Positions 10,689 through 17,347 of a DNA stretch of 64,000 bases are shown here, one piece after another (position 1 is the stretch's first letter; the number at the start of each line of letters is the position of its first letter). The translations under genes were made by a program, and so were the position numbers. Origin of the DNA: Primorskyibacter flagellatus (GTDB taxonomy: Bacteria > Pseudomonadota > Alphaproteobacteria > Rhodobacterales > Rhodobacteraceae); the NCBI RefSeq assembly GCF_014638275.1, contig NZ_BMFJ01000001.1, forward strand, positions 2,096,338 through 2,160,337, read 5' to 3'. The notes below the pieces were generated by a model. It saw only the letters and a list, made by a program, of their open reading frames with translations, made no database searches and was not told where the DNA came from.

Positions 10689-10708
10689 GCGGGCGGACGG
10701 CGCAGGCT

Positions 10709-10837
10709 CCCCCTCACCCCGACCCTCTCCCCCGCGGGGGAGAGGGAGATGCGTTGCACGGATTACAGGTGCTGCGTTCGATTTCCGCACGACGAGACTC
10801 TCTCTCCCCTCCGGGGGAGAGGGTTGGGGTGAGGGGG
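10709..10837. repeat. Large inverted repeat of CT-rich arms (family A)
   Basis: Two 25-base arms (10709-10733 and 10813-10837) are complementary with a single mismatch; the left starts CCCCCTCACCCCGACC. Each arm also forms its own short hairpin with the bases beside it (CTCTCCCCC-GC-GGGGGAGAG on the left). A half-element of the same kind lies near 61071. It fills most of the gap between two convergent genes and may terminate both transcripts. Confidence 0.85.
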
Positions 10838-10922
10838 TCTGCCCTCGCTGCGTCCTCCAGCCCCGGTATAGTGCCCTGCCCTCCCCGGAACAGCCCGAAG
10901 GCCAGGGAGGCGGCTTCCCTGC

Positions 10923-12062
10923 TCAGTACATCCGCGCCAGCAGGTCCCCCGCCTCCGCTTCCGTTTCCAGCCGCCGGGGGTTCTGGGACACATGCCTCAA
11001 TTCCATGACCAGTGGCGCCAGCGCGGCGAGTTCCTCGGGTGTGCGATCCGACACCTCCGACAGGCGGCGCGGCAGGCCGAGCCCCCGGATCAGCGCATCC
11101 ACCGCCTCTGCCCCGGCGCGGCCGGTCAGGTGACGGAGAACGCGGTCGGCCTTGTTTCCTGCCGCCCCGTTCCAGTCCATCACATGCGGCAGGGTGATGC
11201 AGGAACAGTGGCCATGCGCCACCCCGAAATGGGCACCGAACAGGTAGCCGATGCCGTGGCTCAGCCCGGTGTGCGCCCCGGTACAGGCGGTCCCGGCCAG
11301 CCAGGTCGCGGACTGGACATCCGCGATGGCGTCCAAGTCCTCCGGGTCGGCGTGACAACGTGGCAGGGCATCAAACAGCAGAGCCAGAGCCTTCTCTGCG
11401 AGCGCGTCGGTATAGGGAGTTGCGGCATCGCCGCCAAGCGCCTCAACCGCGTGATCGACGGAACGGATGGCGGAGGAGAGCCAGAGGCCCGGCGGCGTAT
11501 GCTGTGCCAGCGCGGGGTCGAGCACGACAAGATCGGGGACCAGCGCGGGGTTGTTCAGGCCGGTCTTCTGTTGCCGCTCCGCATCGTGAACCCCTGCCCC
11601 GGTGGTGAACTCGGCGGCAGAGGCGGTCGTGGGCAGGCAGAGGTGCACCGGCAGTCCGGGGATCGGCCCGCGGTCGCGCGCCACGATCCTTGCGCGCAGG
11701 TCGTCGCGGGTCCGCACGTCCCAGGCGAGGCAGGCACAGGCGATCTTGCCCGCGTCGATCACGCTGCCCCCGCCGAGGGAGAGGATGGCATCCGCCCTGT
11801 CGGCGCGGGCCTGCGCAACGGCTTCGATCAGGGCGGGCATGGGCGTGTGCGCCCCTATTCCCGCGAAGCTTCCGGCGTGGCGGGGGCCGAGCGCCGCGGT
11901 CAGGTCGTCCAGCAGCGGGGTGCGCGTCGCAACGCTGGTCCCGGTCAGGACAAAGGCCCGAGTCACGCCAAGCCGGTCGAGACGCGCGTCAAGCCGGGCC
12001 AGTGCGCCAGCGCCCCGCAGGACGGTCAGGGATTTCGTGGTGGTGAAGGCGGTGATGGTCAT
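10923..12062 (-). CDS. Iron-containing alcohol dehydrogenase family protein
   Basis: 379 residues of the Fe-ADH/maleylacetate reductase family. NAD-binding GGGSVIDAGK is near residue 95. Metal ligands appear in RSVDHAVEA (about 190), GLSHGIGYLFG and GVAHGHCSCITLPH (about 255-275). The start giving MTITAFTTTK has GGGGAGA upstream. Family members reduce aldehydes or act on maleylacetate or hydroxycarboxylates; the substrate cannot be told from sequence. Transcribed leftward, divergent from speD. Confidence 0.88.
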   Translation of the reverse strand: MTITAFTTTKSLTVLRGAGALARLDARLDRLGVTRAFVLTGTSVATRTPLLDDLTAALGPRHAGSFAGIGAHTPMPALIEAVAQARADRADAILSLGGGSVIDAGKIACACLAWDVRTRDDLRARIVARDRGPIPGLPVHLCLPTTASAAEFTTGAGVHDAERQQKTGLNNPALVPDLVVLDPALAQHTPPGLWLSSAIRSVDHAVEALGGDAATPYTDALAEKALALLFDALPRCHADPEDLDAIADVQSATWLAGTACTGAHTGLSHGIGYLFGAHFGVAHGHCSCITLPHVMDWNGAAGNKADRVLRHLTGRAGAEAVDALIRGLGLPRRLSEVSDRTPEELAALAPLVMELRHVSQNPRRLETEAEAGDLLARMY

Positions 12063-12179: not shown

Positions 12180-12542
12180 ATGGACCAGTTCATCCCCGGC
12201 ACCCATCTTCTGATCGACCATCGCGGCGGCAAGGGCATGACCGATGCCGCCTTGCTTGAGAAGGTCATGCGTGGCGCGGCTGAGGCGGCGGGCGCGACCG
12301 TGCTGTCGGCGCATTTCCATAGCTTCCCGGACCGCGCGGGCGTGACCGGCGTGCTGCTGCTGGCGGAGAGCCATATCTCGGTCCACACTTGGCCGGAGCA
12401 TGACTACGCGGCCTTCGACATCTTTGTCTGCGGCGAGGGCACGGGGAAGAAGGCGGCGGATTACCTGGCGCGCGCGCTGTTGCCGGACTGGACGCAGATC
12501 CGGGCGGTTCAGCGGAACCACTTCTCCCATCCCGTTTCGTAA
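12180..12542 (+). CDS. speD: S-adenosylmethionine decarboxylase proenzyme
   Basis: 120 residues, the short SpeH-type class. The self-cleavage motif LAESHISVHTWPE is intact: cleavage before Ser64 would give the pyruvoyl group, with His69 and Cys84 as the other processing/catalytic residues. It makes decarboxylated SAM, the aminopropyl donor for spermidine synthase. No ribosome binding site is evident. The 3' end overlaps the 3' end of the spermidine synthase gene on the other strand by 34 bases. Confidence 0.94.
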   Translation: MDQFIPGTHLLIDHRGGKGMTDAALLEKVMRGAAEAAGATVLSAHFHSFPDRAGVTGVLLLAESHISVHTWPEHDYAAFDIFVCGEGTGKKAADYLARALLPDWTQIRAVQRNHFSHPVS

Positions 12543-14083
12543 TAGCGCACCAGAGCGTGGTCGCGGAGGGAGTTGACCTCGGCCTCGATCCGGGCGGTGT
12601 CGGCTTCGAAGACCTGCGCCTTTTCCCACGTGGTCTGCGTCAGGTAGCGCAGGCCGTCGGGCAGGGTCAGGGGGCGCGGGGCGGGGTCTTCGGGCGTGGC
12701 GAGCACGAAGCCCCAGTCGCCGAAGGACGGAACAAGCGTGTGGTAGGGGATGACTGTCAGGCCTGCGCCGGGGGCGTAGGGGTTGCGGGTGGTTTCCCAC
12801 GTGGCGGCGACGGACCAGAAGGCTTCTCGCGCGTAGAAGGGCGATCCGGCCTGGGTGACGATGACGCCGCCGGAGGCGAGGCGGTCGGTCAGGATGGCGT
12901 AGAATTCACGGCTGTAAAGCTTTGACAGGGAAAGGGATTTCGGGTCCGGCAAGTCGAGGATGATGGTGTCGTAGGACTGGTCCGAGGTTTCGGTGAAGGT
13001 CCAGGCGTCCTGGTTCCTGACGGTCACGCGGGGGTCGGCGAAGCTGTTGCCGTTCAGCGCGGTGAGGTCGGGGTGGGTGGCGAAAAGTGCGGTCATGCGC
13101 GGATCGAGGTCCACCAGCGTGACCGTTTTGACCTTGTGGCGCAGCACCTCGCGCAGGGCCATGCCGTCGCCGCCGCCGAGTATCAGGACGTTGTGCGGCG
13201 CGGGGGTGAGGGCCATGGCGGGGTGCACCAGCGCCTCGTGGTAACGGTATTCGTCGTAGCTGTCGAACTGGATGGAATGGTCGAGGAAGAGGCGCGTCCG
13301 GTCGCGGAACCGGGTCAGGGTGATGTGCTGGTAGGGCGTATCCTCGGACAGGATCACGTCGTCCTCGTAAAGCGCGGCCTCGGTCAGGGAGACGAGGCGT
13401 TCGGCCTGCCAGAGGCCGAGGCCGGTGGCGAGGGCGGCGACGGTCCAGAGCGCCAGCGGGGCAAGCGAAAGGTGCGCGCGGAAGATCCAGAGCGAGAGGC
13501 CGGCGACGGCGAGGTTCAGCGCCCCGAAGGTAAGGGAGGCGGACATGAGCCCGAGGTGCGGGACGATCAGCACCGGAAAGGCGAGCGAGGCGGCGAGCGC
13601 GCCGAGGTAGTCGAAAGAAAGCACATTTTCAAAGCGGAACTGCGGGGCCCCGATCGCGGCGAGGGTGCGGGCGATGAGCGGGATCTCCATCCCCGAGAGG
13701 GCACCGACGGCGATGAGCATGGTATAAAGCGGCAGCTCGACCTCTCCGGTCCAGGCGTAGAGGGCGAAAATGACCGGGGCGAGGAAGCCGCCGATCACTC
13801 CAAGCAGGATCTGCACCCAGACAAAGCCCGGCAGCGCGTCGCGGACATAGCGGCTGGCCCAGGCGCCCAGACCCATGGAGGCGAGGAAGATACCGATGAC
13901 GAAAGAGAACTGGCGGACGGAATCGCCGAGCAGGTAGCTCGACAGCGTCGCGGCGATGAGTTCGTAGATCAGCCCGGCGACGGCGACGAGGAAGGTGGCG
14001 GTCAGCAGCCAGACCTCGCGCGGGGAGACGCGCGGGCCTGTCCCGTCCGGCGCGGGGCCGCTGTCCTTCGGCGTGTCGCTCAC
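12509..14083 (-). CDS. speE: Membrane-embedded polyamine aminopropyltransferase (spermidine synthase)
   Basis: 524 residues. About seven hydrophobic segments occupy residues 20-235; the cytosolic spermidine synthase domain follows (about 240-524). Its motifs are TPYQHI, the substrate-binding region LFLDHSIQFDSYDEYRYHE, the dcSAM-binding GGGDG (about 308) and LDLPDP near 385, the form seen in membrane-fused SpeE. Last gene of a leftward run behind DUF350 and DUF4178 genes, and convergent with speD, which supplies its co-substrate. Confidence 0.92.
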   Translation of the reverse strand: MSDTPKDSGPAPDGTGPRVSPREVWLLTATFLVAVAGLIYELIAATLSSYLLGDSVRQFSFVIGIFLASMGLGAWASRYVRDALPGFVWVQILLGVIGGFLAPVIFALYAWTGEVELPLYTMLIAVGALSGMEIPLIARTLAAIGAPQFRFENVLSFDYLGALAASLAFPVLIVPHLGLMSASLTFGALNLAVAGLSLWIFRAHLSLAPLALWTVAALATGLGLWQAERLVSLTEAALYEDDVILSEDTPYQHITLTRFRDRTRLFLDHSIQFDSYDEYRYHEALVHPAMALTPAPHNVLILGGGDGMALREVLRHKVKTVTLVDLDPRMTALFATHPDLTALNGNSFADPRVTVRNQDAWTFTETSDQSYDTIILDLPDPKSLSLSKLYSREFYAILTDRLASGGVIVTQAGSPFYAREAFWSVAATWETTRNPYAPGAGLTVIPYHTLVPSFGDWGFVLATPEDPAPRPLTLPDGLRYLTQTTWEKAQVFEADTARIEAEVNSLRDHALVRYYETGWEKWFR

Positions 14084-14095
14084 GTCAGGTTGGGA

Positions 14096-14314
14096 TCACG
14101 ACAGGATCACGGCCGCAATGATGATCGCCATGCCAAGGAAGATCGCGCCCATGAGGATGGCGAGGGCGATGTTCTGATCCTCCTCTATCTCCTTCACCAC
14201 CGGGAATGGGGCGATCCATGTGATCGCGTACCAGACCACGGCCATGAGGCCGAGCCCGAGGAGGGAATAGAAGATGGTCGAGACGAACTCGGCCAGAATG
14301 ATCGCGTCGAACAT
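14096..14314 (-). CDS. DUF350 family small membrane protein
   Basis: 72 residues with two transmembrane segments (about 10-33 and 48-71) joined by an acidic loop VKEIEEDQN, matching one repeat unit of DUF350 (YjfL-like). Function unknown; the family repeatedly occurs beside spermidine or glutathionylspermidine synthase genes and DUF4178/PspA-type proteins. It lies 12 bases before speE and 11 bases after a 54-codon gene, consistent with one operon. AAGGG precedes the ATG. Confidence 0.85.
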   Translation of the reverse strand: MFDAIILAEFVSTIFYSLLGLGLMAVVWYAITWIAPFPVVKEIEEDQNIALAILMGAIFLGMAIIIAAVILS

Positions 14315-14325
14315 GGTGTCCCTTT

Positions 14326-14490
14326 CTACTTGATTTGCCCGCCGGAGCCGATGACCCGCCCCGCCGATCCCGCCCGGACAGAGCGGTCGAGGTCCGAACT
14401 GTCGCGCCCGATCCCGTAATAACCCAGCCAGGTCGCCCCGGCGATGGCGGAGAGGCCGACGATCAGGAAGAGGATGCGGAAGGGGGTCAT
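14326..14490 (-). CDS. Small membrane protein of 54 residues
   Basis: Reads MTPFRILFLIVGLSAIAGAT at the N-terminus: one transmembrane segment of about 20 residues, then a short soluble tail rich in Arg, Ser and Gly that ends GQIK. It fits exactly between the DUF4178 gene (9 bases after) and DUF350 (11 bases before), in the same orientation, which supports it being real. No family recognised. It could be a small subunit of the membrane complex implied by its neighbours. Confidence 0.65.
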   Translation of the reverse strand: MTPFRILFLIVGLSAIAGATWLGYYGIGRDSSDLDRSVRAGSAGRVIGSGGQIK

Positions 14491-14499
14491 CGGGCTGCC

Positions 14500-15798
14500 T
14501 CAGTCATCGTCGTCCTCGTCGGTCCAGTCGCTACCGCTCCACCGTCTTGTATTGGCCAGGCCGGCGCGCAGGAAGACCAGCAGCGGGATGGCCAGGAAGA
14601 CGGCTGTGAGCAGGAAAAGCCACCAGCCCGTCGACAGCCCTTCGGTCACCGTCACCGTCACGCGGGAGGCCAGCGCGCCGCCCGGCGTGTCGCGTTCGCT
14701 TTCCGCCAGGGCGAGGTCGAGAACGTGATCGCCGGGCGTTTCGGGGTGGAAACGGATGCGGGTGCGGCGGGAGCCTTCGGTCCAGGCGCCTTCGTTGTCG
14801 CGTCCGGAATAGAAGCCGACCTCGCGCCCGGCCTCGAACACCGGCGAGTCGTCGGGATCCGTCAGGCCGACCTCGAACCAGGCCCAGGCGTTTGTCACGT
14901 CGGTCCAGACCTCGATCTGCGCGAGGCGGGCGGTGTCGGAGACGGTGAAATGCAGTTCAAGCGGCAGTCCGGACACGGGCAGGTCCGCGACCCGCGCCAC
15001 CTGCGTGCCCTTCGCCGCGCCGAACAGGATGCCGAGAAACAGGGACAGGGCAGCGAGCAGCAGCGGCACCGTCATGTAGAATTTCGGCATGTGGCGCTGC
15101 GGGTAGGGCATCAGCGGGTGGTTGCGGCTGGCATGGCGCGGGGCTTCGGCCCCGAAAGCGGCGTAGGTCTCGGGCGGCAGCCAGGTCGAGACCTCCACCT
15201 CCCGCTCGGTCGCGCTTTCCTCGAAACTCAGCATCGTGTCTGGTCCGAGGCAGGACACCACGGTGGCGCGGTCGCCGACCTTCGGGGTCCAGTTGAATTC
15301 GCCTTCGGCATAGGTGATTTCGGCGGTACTGGTTTCGTAATAGCGGAAGGTCTCGCCCTCCGACGTGACGTCGGGCCGGGTTTCGGCGCGTTCGACGGTG
15401 GCGGAGGTGATGAAATCCGGAAAGCAGGGCTTTCGATAGCGGCGGGAGAAGATCAGGTGCCCGTCCTCGACCGTCAGCCAGGCGTAACCGTGGGTGGGGG
15501 AAAAGACCTGATGATCGACCCAGGTCCAGGTGCGGCCGCCGTAGCGCTCTTCCCAGCCCAGAGTGCCGATGACGGTGAAGGCCACGCCGTCGATCTGCCC
15601 GCTCATGCCGGGGCGGAGAGGAGAGGACGGGCGGATGATGCCGCTGTATTTCGCGATAACCCTGTAATCCGCCTGCGCGTCGAGCGCAGTGCCACAGTAG
15701 GGGCAGATGTGGGTCGCGACCCGGCCTCCGCCAAGCACGTCCAGCCCCGCCCCGCAGGCGGTACAGTTGATCGCGCGAAGATCGGGGCTGCGGGTCAT
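14500..15798 (-). CDS. Zinc-ribbon DUF4178 protein with two membrane segments
   Basis: 432 residues. An N-terminal zinc ribbon (CTAC at 12-15, CPYC at 32-35) precedes a DUF4178 domain (about 60-170), then a transmembrane helix at about 240-260, an extracytoplasmic beta-rich region (about 270-385), a second helix at 391-411 and an acidic tail ending DEDDDD. Its ATG overlaps the end of the previous DUF4178 gene by 4 bases. Function unknown; the layout suggests a membrane sensor or scaffold working with DUF350 and the membrane SpeE. Confidence 0.8.
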   Translation of the reverse strand: MTRSPDLRAINCTACGAGLDVLGGGRVATHICPYCGTALDAQADYRVIAKYSGIIRPSSPLRPGMSGQIDGVAFTVIGTLGWEERYGGRTWTWVDHQVFSPTHGYAWLTVEDGHLIFSRRYRKPCFPDFITSATVERAETRPDVTSEGETFRYYETSTAEITYAEGEFNWTPKVGDRATVVSCLGPDTMLSFEESATEREVEVSTWLPPETYAAFGAEAPRHASRNHPLMPYPQRHMPKFYMTVPLLLAALSLFLGILFGAAKGTQVARVADLPVSGLPLELHFTVSDTARLAQIEVWTDVTNAWAWFEVGLTDPDDSPVFEAGREVGFYSGRDNEGAWTEGSRRTRIRFHPETPGDHVLDLALAESERDTPGGALASRVTVTVTEGLSTGWWLFLLTAVFLAIPLLVFLRAGLANTRRWSGSDWTDEDDDD

Positions 15799-16406
15799 GG
15801 GCGACGCTCCACCACGATCTCGAACGGGTCGATCCAGTGGCCTTCGAACCAGAGGGTCGGGCCGTCCTGGAATTCGCCTGACAGAAGCTTGCCATTGCCA
15901 GAGAGCGCGTTGAGGAAGGTGTAGGTTTCCCCGACGCTCAGGGCTTCGTCGAATTCGCCGCGCAGGGCGATGCAGGTGGCGCGGTCGATCTCGGTCACGC
16001 GGTAGTTCGTGCCGTGGTGGGTGAAGGCGTCGCCGGGGCGCATGGTGTCGCCGGCCTTTGGCCCGCCGGAGCCGCGGATGGACCGCTGCACCGCCACGTC
16101 GCCTTCGTCGATCGAGAGCCATGCGGACTGGCCTTTGGTGTCGAGTGCCCAGAATTCGTCCCACCAGCCGCGACCGTAGCTGAAGCGCGCGTGACCGAGG
16201 ATGTCGAAGGTGCCGGGGGCGCAGGCGACACGGTCGCCGATCCCGAAGAGCAGCGGAGCGTCGTGCATGACCCCGGCGTCGCCCGCCTGTTTCACCACCG
16301 CATCGTCGTAGAGCAGCGTTGTCCCGCAGGAGGGACAGGTCAGCATGCGCACGCCTGCGTGCAGGTCGATGTGGTCGCCGCAGTTCGGGCAGGCGATCTG
16401 GACCAT
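15795..16406 (-). CDS. Zinc-ribbon DUF4178 protein, soluble
   Basis: 203 residues. The zinc ribbon CPNC (6-9) and CPSC (24-27) is followed by a DUF4178 domain arranged twice, seen in the paired repeats around FGIGDRVACAPGTFDILGHARFSY and MRPGDAFTHHGTNYRVTEIDRAT. No signal peptide or membrane segment. First gene of the leftward five-gene cluster, with a 170-base divergent gap upstream. Paralogous to the next gene but without its membrane part. Confidence 0.78.
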   Translation of the reverse strand: MVQIACPNCGDHIDLHAGVRMLTCPSCGTTLLYDDAVVKQAGDAGVMHDAPLLFGIGDRVACAPGTFDILGHARFSYGRGWWDEFWALDTKGQSAWLSIDEGDVAVQRSIRGSGGPKAGDTMRPGDAFTHHGTNYRVTEIDRATCIALRGEFDEALSVGETYTFLNALSGNGKLLSGEFQDGPTLWFEGHWIDPFEIVVERRP

Positions 16407-16576: not shown

Positions 16577-17347
16577 ATGAACTTCACGGCGAACTACTTC
16601 CGCGGCGACGAGGATCCGAAAAGCGGTCCGGTCCGTGTCGGCTGGCTTCTGGGTGACACCGACAGCCCGGTGATCTACGACCCGCCGCGTCGGGTGAATT
16701 CGCGCACCGCCCGGAAAGAGCACGCCAAAAGCGCCTCGCGCTGCCCCGCCGTTCTGAACCTGGAAAGCCGGTATTTCGAGATCCCCTGCCCGTTTGACCT
16801 GAACGTCGGCTTCGGGCGCGACAAGGAGGGACGCCCGACGCTGCACAACCTGTCCGGCGCGGCGAGCGCGATCCGCGGATCGACCCTGGGCAAGAAGCTG
16901 TCGATCACCAATGAATCGGAGTGGCGCTTTCCCGACCGGCCGATGATCCAGCTCAAGCTGCCGTACTACTTCATCGCGGACGAACCGGTCTACCTGACAC
17001 AGCTCGACGCCTACATGCACTACCGCAAGGTGCCGCTGCCCGGCACGATCTTTGGTGGGCGCTTCCCGATCGACGTCTGGCCGCGTCCGCTCATGTGGGC
17101 GTTCGAGTGGCATGAACCCGAGAAGCCGATCGTGGTGAAGCGGGGCGATCCGCTATTCTACTGCCAGTTCGAATTCGACAGCCCCGAGCGCAACGTGCAG
17201 ATGGTCGAGGCGGAGATGACGCCGGAACTCAGGACCTACATGGACCATATCTCCGGCGCGGTGAACTATGTCAGCCAGACCTTTTCGCTGTTCGAGGCGG
17301 CAGAGCGGGTGCGCCCGGCAACCCTGCTGACCCCGCGCAAGACGTGA
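16577..17347 (+). CDS. Conserved protein of unknown function, paired with a sulfotransferase fusion
   Basis: 256 residues, no signal peptide or membrane segment. Visible features are a C-terminal half rich in aromatic residues (YMHYRKVPLPGTIFGGRFPIDVWPRPLMWAFEWHE and KRGDPLFYCQFEF taken as separate patches). No family recognised with confidence; some resemblance in style to DUF6065-type proteins that accompany glycan or peptide modification enzymes. The next gene starts with GTG inside its stop, so the two are translationally coupled. Confidence 0.75.
   Translation: MNFTANYFRGDEDPKSGPVRVGWLLGDTDSPVIYDPPRRVNSRTARKEHAKSASRCPAVLNLESRYFEIPCPFDLNVGFGRDKEGRPTLHNLSGAASAIRGSTLGKKLSITNESEWRFPDRPMIQLKLPYYFIADEPVYLTQLDAYMHYRKVPLPGTIFGGRFPIDVWPRPLMWAFEWHEPEKPIVVKRGDPLFYCQFEFDSPERNVQMVEAEMTPELRTYMDHISGAVNYVSQTFSLFEAAERVRPATLLTPRKT

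Follow-up and report, generated by a model that had tools for sequence, protein, structure and literature searches.

What does a membrane-bound relative of spermidine synthase act on when it is encoded together with its own source of decarboxylated S-adenosylmethionine (SAM) and a set of very small membrane proteins? This question is raised by a gene cluster of Primorskyibacter flagellatus (Rhodobacteraceae) at positions 12180-16406 of the analyzed 64,000-nucleotide stretch, which is called the window throughout and corresponds to positions 2,096,338 to 2,160,337 of contig NZ_BMFJ01000001.1. The cluster combines two DUF4178 proteins, a 54-residue membrane peptide, a short DUF350 protein and TM-SpeE, a fusion of membrane helices with an aminopropyltransferase domain, and it faces speD, the gene of a SAM decarboxylase. 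We found that TM-SpeE is regularly accompanied by a tail whose last residue is lysine, here the C-terminus of the 54-residue peptide. Based on the sequences, we lean towards a reading in which TM-SpeE transfers aminopropyl from decarboxylated SAM to this terminal lysine. The lysine-tail rule is a new and purely computational result. An earlier reading of the window from its letters (the sequence-only reading) had missed the recurrent lysine, and likewise that the operon type itself is already published.

Gene cluster and protein families

The open reading frames (ORFs) and their translations placed five minus-strand genes and a convergent speD where the sequence-only reading had put them; lengths are given in amino acids (aa) and TM stands for transmembrane.

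15795-16406, minus strand: DUF4178a, 203 aa, with an N-terminal CxxC..CxxC zinc ribbon and one DUF4178 domain
14500-15798, minus strand: DUF4178b, 432 aa, with a zinc ribbon, a DUF4178 beta domain, two TM helices and an acidic end
14326-14490, minus strand: 54-aa Lys-tailed membrane peptide, with one TM helix, a tail with S-V-R-x-G-S and the end -Q-I-K
14329-14382, minus strand: tail of this peptide, its last 18 codons, the Lys codon at 14329-14331
14096-14314, minus strand: half-length DUF350 membrane protein (PF03994), 72 aa, about two TM helices
12509-14083, minus strand: TM-SpeE, 524 aa, helices at ~21-239 (probably seven) followed by the aminopropyltransferase domain at ~240-524
13163-13177, minus strand: GGGDG motif of TM-SpeE, residues 303-307, with the acid that goes with decarboxylated SAM
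12180-12542, plus strand: speD, presumed class 1b SAM decarboxylase, 120 aa, convergent with TM-SpeE

The families assigned earlier, i.e. two DUF4178 proteins, two small membrane proteins and a membrane SpeE, were borne out by the ORFs together with Pfam and NCBIfam. PF13785 (DUF4178) scored 63.4 bits for each of the two proteins (gathering cut-off 25), and PF03994 scored 45.5 bits for the DUF350 protein (cut-off 26) while covering only positions 3-65 of the 133 in the profile, i.e. half its length. Pfam further gave 121.7 bits for TM-SpeE (Spermine_synth) and 108.6 bits for SpeD (AdoMet_dc). Among the NCBIfam models, TM-SpeE exceeded the cut-off of NF002956, the polyamine aminopropyltransferase family of PRK03612-like membrane SpeE proteins (618.6 bits, cut-off 472), and fell below that of the soluble SpeE model TIGR00417 (127.8 bits, cut-off 249.55). 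SpeD reached 113 bits against TIGR03330 (cut-off 75.65), and its translation contains an ESHxSxHTWPE region, which we take to be the self-cleavage region. The 54-aa peptide had no family match at E 0.1 in either scan. DUF4178a is likely a cytosolic protein.

The genes are packed nearly as had been proposed: instead of spacings of 4-16 bases, DUF4178a and DUF4178b overlap by 4 bp (ATGA) and the remaining gaps measure 9, 11 and 12 nt. The 34-bp tail-to-tail overlap of TM-SpeE (low end at 12509) with speD (end at 12542) is as described earlier.

Conservation of the neighbourhood

The cluster is not a chance arrangement, since the same five genes occur in the same order in 20/20 loci of the family (TM-SpeE at least 53% identical, own genome apart), with DUF4178a in first position in each of them. 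Scanning a genome collection with an alignment of 20 sequences gave 572 loci, the best 80 of which are referred to as the named loci; judged by record title, they come from Proteobacteria, Bacteroidota, Acidobacteriota, Verrucomicrobiota, Myxococcota and others. Profiles detected DUF4178 in 71 of the 80, DUF350 in 70, a flavin amine oxidase in 59, SpeD in 41 (a count that covers only the fetched stretches of the relatives) and Band7 in 35, while PspA and CesT appeared once each; a PspA-like cluster was present in 6/45 further loci outside this set. Conversely, a TM-SpeE match was present in 20/20 genomes with DUF4178 (own apart), in three of them as two pieces. The association of DUF350 and DUF4178 with polyamine genes, as named in the sequence-only reading, holds in these loci. 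The cluster is kept far beyond the window's own family, so that the lack of a conserved neighbourhood elsewhere, named by the sequence-only reading as the outcome that would speak against it, is not what the survey found.

In 57 of its 59 named loci, the flavin amine oxidase is no more than 700 bp away from the end of TM-SpeE (L118:9469-11151 is one example among similar loci), and many of the oxidases viewed start with Tat- or lipoprotein-like signals, as judged by eye. It may oxidise the aminopropylated product.

A terminal lysine recurs in dissimilar tails

Peptides of the family type share an N-terminal TM segment followed by a variable tail, which ends in [VI]K in 22/22 family-type loci; homologues in all of these rule out a chance ORF, and a counterpart in Novosphingobium is annotated as hypothetical protein WP_193828724.1. 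Other lineages encode a dissimilar small TM peptide in a similar place, with ends such as ..FYHK, ..HHK, ..PTHK, ..RGGK or ..YGK. Altogether, 117 of 125 loci (the window and 124 others) have a Lys-ended, mostly Gly/Ser-rich tail, either on a stand-alone protein (90) or fused to DUF4178 (27). Locus L102 is left out of the 125, its stretch having neither a TM-SpeE nor a DUF4178 gene by profiles; the genome it belongs to, G632, was tested via L231 instead. In the fused cases the DUF4178 protein itself ends in a TM segment and a Gly/Ser tail, with ..GGGHK or ..GGSHK as the usual endings. Where the peptide is separate, most DUF4178 proteins have acidic C-terminal ends (by eye). The 27 fusions are Rosetta-stone behaviour of DUF4178 and the lysine tail.

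Among the last-22-residue strings, 114/117 are distinct (some genomes outside the named set may duplicate named species) and fall into 50 greedy clusters; lysine is the last residue in 114/114. Among the 12 end positions examined, none besides this one is invariant, the next best being position -2 with histidine in 57/114 (50%). As a background, 366/8578 (4.3%) closed ORFs of 30-120 aa that matched no profile in the 80 named loci end in lysine, a set that includes some of the tails themselves. When the most hydrophobic gap ORF was chosen blind to its end, lysine was last in 67/75 picks. Within the last 16 residues, 107/117 tails have no second lysine, and likewise 107/117 have neither Asp nor Glu.

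The rule was then checked on loci that seemed to break it and on loci fetched afterwards. Eight named loci have TM-SpeE but no tail; all eight genomes encode DUF4178 outside the fetched stretch, and in seven of them a Lys-ended tail lies beside or on this outlying DUF4178, the eighth being cut by a contig end. In G632, a 90-aa protein ending in ..GPHGGK stands immediately upstream of TM-SpeE. All five plasmid loci fetched later (5 of 13 records whose match spans at least 80% of TM-SpeE) also carry the tail, which together with G632 makes 6/6 later loci. One of these carriers, on an Alteromonas plasmid, is a 510-aa protein with a lipobox and the end ..GPSSGK, next to a TM-SpeE of only 32.5% identity.

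A 604-kb plasmid of Alteromonas mediterranea carries a single run (L237:5932-12590) made up of TM-SpeE, speD, a toxic-anion-resistance protein, DUF4178, a lipoprotein-like protein with a Lys end and a DUF350 protein of 289 aa.

A variant from the window's own family separates the tail from DUF4178. Loci L084-L088 (e.g. L084:7725-10116) combine speD, a rhomboid-GNAT fusion, a 198-206-aa protein ending in ..GK and a TM-SpeE of ~40% identity, and the ..GK protein adjoins TM-SpeE in 5/5. Four of the five genomes gave no match to DUF4178 though they keep TM-SpeE, SpeD and the lysine tail; the fifth, G408, has both system types, each with a tail of its own. This rules out the lysine tail as a property of DUF4178, and the core of the system looks like SpeD, TM-SpeE and the tail, with SpeD checked inside the fetched stretches only. 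Defined in this way, as SpeD, TM-SpeE and a membrane or exported Lys-ended protein, the system is present in the window, where the peptide ends in -QIK. As a separate observation, a rhomboid protease next to a candidate TM substrate in L084-L088 invites a processing hypothesis.

TM-SpeE as an aminopropyltransferase

The AlphaFold model of TM-SpeE has a mean pLDDT of 91.9 and a pTM of 0.68. Its top Foldseek matches are the Thermus triamine/agmatine aminopropyltransferase and the thermospermine synthase of Medicago, and the sequence search was headed by a Pyrobaculum aminopropyltransferase, thermospermine synthase and the Thermus enzyme. D306 of the GGGDG motif as well as D377 and D380 of the DxxDP motif (DLPDP here) are invariant in 56 aligned sequences, the window included, and align to the corresponding acids of solved aminopropyltransferases; the two DxxDP acids presumably serve in catalysis. 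In common spermidine synthases, DxxDP is followed by the segment GP-x-x-x-LF. TM-SpeE departs from it here, and this change suggests that its acceptor site is probably altered compared to the common enzymes.

Proposed mechanism

In the reading we lean towards, SpeD would make decarboxylated SAM and TM-SpeE would use it to load the C-terminal lysine of the tail, at its side chain, with at least one 3-aminopropyl group. The acceptor would be a dedicated tail, rich in Gly/Ser in most cases and either anchored in the membrane or exported, i.e. the 54-residue peptide here and a lipoprotein or the end of DUF4178 elsewhere. Lysine is a plausible acceptor because its terminal side chain resembles one end of cadaverine, a primary amine of the type used by this enzyme family. 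The product would be a membrane-tethered polyamine tip. Many lineages have a flavin amine oxidase whose N-terminus is export-like, and this enzyme may process the tip further. DUF4178 and DUF350 would probably be scaffold or control parts. We infer a physiological role in the stabilisation of the envelope or membrane.

The sequence-only reading had suggested an aminopropyl transfer to, or through, the membrane. This remains the best-fitting idea, but no part of DUF4178 or DUF350 in the reaction emerged from the analysis, DUF4178 being dispensed with in four of the five rhomboid-type genomes.

Polyamine genes in the genome and alternative readings

Whether the organism has another SpeE had been named as decisive. 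None was found: the genome assembly (4.6 Mb, 93.9% complete) contains one PF01564 and one PF02675 match, both inside this cluster, and given the single PF01564 match in an assembly of that completeness, the idea of a second soluble SpeE was rejected. The genome also gave no match to nspC or to a deoxyhypusine-synthase-type SpeY (homospermidine synthase was not searched for), and it has three ORFs of the ornithine/arginine-decarboxylase family. A TM-SpeE of at least 40% identity is encoded in 25 of the 295 genomes searched from this family, the window's own genome among them. A separate SpeE is also present in 5 of these 25 and gave no match in the other 20; the one other genome of the same genus listed in this search has no separate SpeE.

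These data bear on the possibility that TM-SpeE is an ordinary membrane-bound synthase of spermidine or another free polyamine, perhaps releasing its product outside, with the lysine tail as a diamine-mimicking regulator of the acceptor pocket. The only aminopropyltransferase and the only SpeD found in the genome, the missing nspC and SpeY matches, the putrescine that could be available through the three decarboxylase-family ORFs, the intact active-site acids and the 20/25 genomes without a separate SpeE match all agree with it. We nevertheless hold it to be unlikely. The 5/25 genomes that have both enzymes speak against it, as does the regular Lys-ended companion in dissimilar carriers, which it leaves unexplained. 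Li et al. in 2019 are also said to have described a functional SAM decarboxylase without spermidine in such genomes, which we count on the same side.

It appears very improbable that the target of TM-SpeE is a lipid head group or some other polymer of the envelope, with the tail as an anchor, chaperone or sensor binding anionic lipid. The membrane location, DUF350 and the frequent Band7 genes (35/80 named loci) are in line with it, as are PspA in relatives described in the available text of PMC11237479 and the 107/117 tails without Asp or Glu near the end. However, lipid binding should tolerate arginine or an internal lysine, whereas the lysine is exactly terminal in all 114 distinct tails and is the only one within the last 16 residues in 107/117. 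Slightly less probable still is the use of the terminal lysine by another factor, as a carboxypeptidase site, a ligation point or an amine-oxidase substrate in the style of lysyl oxidase, for although the oxidase profile occurs in 59/80 named loci, mostly directly after TM-SpeE, L109-L116 keep the lysine without such a match and the tail follows TM-SpeE rather than the oxidase.

Membrane topology

In the TM-SpeE model, the catalytic domain is preceded by six long helical stretches, with residues 151-200 unbroken in the DSSP line. We counted this stretch as two spans because the averaged hydropathy dips at 178-181, near the invariant P170 and P175, and position 181 holds a conserved K/R (80%). 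The seven membrane segments of the sequence-only reading are thus likely, with six compatible with the DSSP line; in the available text of Ravi et al. 2024 (PMC11237479) the membrane domain is named 7TM. The most conserved K/R residues lie in loops 2-3, 4-5 and 6-7, a pattern that, combined with seven helices, would put the N-terminus on the inner side of the membrane and the catalytic domain on the outer side.

For the tail, a charge count of the flanks of the TM segment scored 81 separate peptides (36/117 tails were skipped as fused, longer than 130 aa or abbreviated), and the N-flank was more positive in 55 of them. A lipobox was recognised by eye in two large tail carriers. In the AlphaFold model of DUF4178b, a beta-sandwich (265-388) stands between two TM helices (238-261 and 392-420). 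The peptide flanks, the lipoboxes, the signals of the oxidases and this beta-sandwich favour a periplasmic tail; a periplasmic catalytic domain is the weaker inference of the two. With seven helices, the catalytic domain would be periplasmic and meet the tail there, and the helices would perhaps pass the cationic donor across the membrane. With six, it would be cytosolic and the tail would be modified before export. The conserved acids E41, D54, E133 and D158, in or near the helices of TM-SpeE, are compatible with the passage of a cation, though no proof of it.

Several points weigh against aminopropyl transfer to the lysine tail and against its proposed side. As the sole aminopropyltransferase found here, in a genome without nspC and SpeY matches, TM-SpeE might simply be the spermidine synthase of the cell, and the terminal lysine could serve binding and not catalysis. 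The tails were partly gathered knowing that a lysine end was expected. Eight of the 75 blind picks do not end in lysine (three are loci with fused tails, and five have a Lys-ending ORF in another frame), and locus L090 holds two Lys-ended candidates. The loci are related, so 117 tails are not 117 independent events; the 50 clusters and the dissimilar carriers are a better measure than the raw locus count. Regarding the side, residues 151-200 form one helix in the DSSP line, whereas the argument needs seven helices. Some K/R also occurs in the loops that precede TM4 and TM6 (0.61 at 116, 0.80 at 181), and the C-flank is more positive in 7/81 peptides, with equal flanks in 19/81. Finally, a periplasmic catalytic domain would need decarboxylated SAM outside the cytosol.

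Comparison with known systems

We know of no acceptor identified for a SpeD paired with a membrane-fused spermidine synthase that apparently does not serve spermidine synthesis. Li et al. in 2019 reportedly linked a polyamine-independent SAM decarboxylase to membrane-bound spermidine synthase fusions, with no acceptor identified. The reported system resembles the present one in having a class 1b SpeD and a membrane-fused spermidine synthase-like protein, apparently not for spermidine, and differs from it in that the lysine tail here proposes an acceptor. Polyamine-type groups on proteins or peptides are found in deoxyhypusine (aminobutyl-lysine) on eIF5A and in aminopropylated microcin C, which are alike in this respect, while enzymes, donors and sites differ.

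Operons of this type have been published as the second major PspA-CesT/Tir group, with a 7TM-spermidine-synthase, DUF350, DUF4178 and a Ctha_1186 lipoprotein, and the available text proposes only a general 'aminopropylation of other substrates' (Ravi et al. 2024, PMC11237479). The window cluster shares the membrane-spermidine synthase fusion, DUF350 and DUF4178 with this group. It differs in that neither PspA nor the CesT/Tir dyad was found among the eight genes scanned around it, and in that the 54-aa TM peptide takes the slot of the lipoprotein. The word 'lysine' is absent from the main text of that paper (PMC11237479), and we found no report of the terminal lysine in the literature searched, a body that lacks most subscription papers.

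A second route to polyamine-bearing peptides is represented in Escherichia coli, where ygiC and yjfC are annotated in RefSeq as peptide-spermidine ligases and adjoin the DUF1190 genes of YgiB and YjfM. These names are in line with the E. coli peptide-spermidine ligases that Pederick et al. are said to have described in 2023. Both DUF1190 proteins (L191:745-1416 and L192:2388-3026, E. coli MG1655) have Gly/Ser-rich tails ending in -GG (2/2), and the yjf operon also contains PspA, a DUF2170 protein and DUF350. Of 150 genomes surveyed, DUF1190 was present in 14, with a -GG end in 10/14 and a lysine end in 0/14; the ORF was picked by eye among the frames, and the ligase neighbours were outside the scope of the survey. 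TM-SpeE had no match in any of the 14, which gave catalytic-domain matches or none. It could be at this -GG end that DUF1190 proteins are naturally ligated. In the window's own genome, PF06693 (DUF1190) had no match, and ATP-grasp had none among the eight genes scanned around the cluster, a genome-wide search not having been made.

In the YgiC/YjfC systems, as at the present locus, a polyamine would be joined to a peptide and a neighbouring protein has a Gly/Ser-rich tail. They differ in the enzyme, a ligase of the ATP-grasp kind there (available text of PMC11237479) and an aminopropyltransferase here, and in the tail, which ends in -GG there and in lysine here. The simplest common idea, by analogy, would be that both equip the end of an exported Gly/Ser-rich tail with a polyamine: one would ligate spermidine to the carboxyl end, and the other would build an aminopropyl chain on the terminal lysine. 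In its widest form, the proposal would be a widespread and undescribed extracytoplasmic protein modification. Decarboxylated SAM would travel through the membrane domain of TM-SpeE, and the enzyme would form N6-(3-aminopropyl)lysine, or extend it to a longer polyamine chain, at the lysine end of a dedicated tail protein, while DUF1190/YgiC would arrive at an equivalent product via spermidine ligation to -GG; we put this forward tentatively and with some doubt.

The fungal N-terminal-histidine methyltransferase (NHMT) is a 7TM, spermidine synthase-like protein that co-localises with the endoplasmic reticulum; according to the available text, it has isoleucine for the acid of GxG(D/E)G and its 7TM region is found in fungi only (PMC10349129). 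Both proteins join membrane helices to a spermidine synthase-like domain, in NHMT to modify the end of exported proteins. NHMT differs in transferring methyl groups and in its isoleucine, where all 56 aligned TM-SpeE sequences have aspartate. A methyltransferase of the NHMT kind was ruled out for TM-SpeE by this conserved GGGDG acid.

Features next to the cluster

Two genes flank the cluster:

10923-12062: gene of the iron-containing alcohol dehydrogenase (Fe-ADH) family
16577-17347, opposite strand, divergent from the cluster: 256-aa ORF with no Pfam or NCBIfam match at E 0.1

Positions 10690-10900 of the window, which lie downstream of the Fe-ADH gene, are GC-rich, with frames that read PSPRPSPPRGRG and HPDPLPRGGEG, and resemble an intergenic repeat element.

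Implications

The recurrent terminal lysine in a co-encoded tail is a specific and testable candidate acceptor for the membrane-bound aminopropyltransferase. If aminopropyl is indeed transferred to it, operons with DUF350 and DUF4178 would gain a concrete biochemical setting, and a second route to polyamine-decorated proteins would exist beside the peptide-spermidine ligases. A periplasmic catalytic domain would imply that a derivative of SAM is exported through the inner membrane. Taken together with DUF1190 and YgiC, two unrelated enzymes would then converge on polyamine-tipped tails of the envelope.

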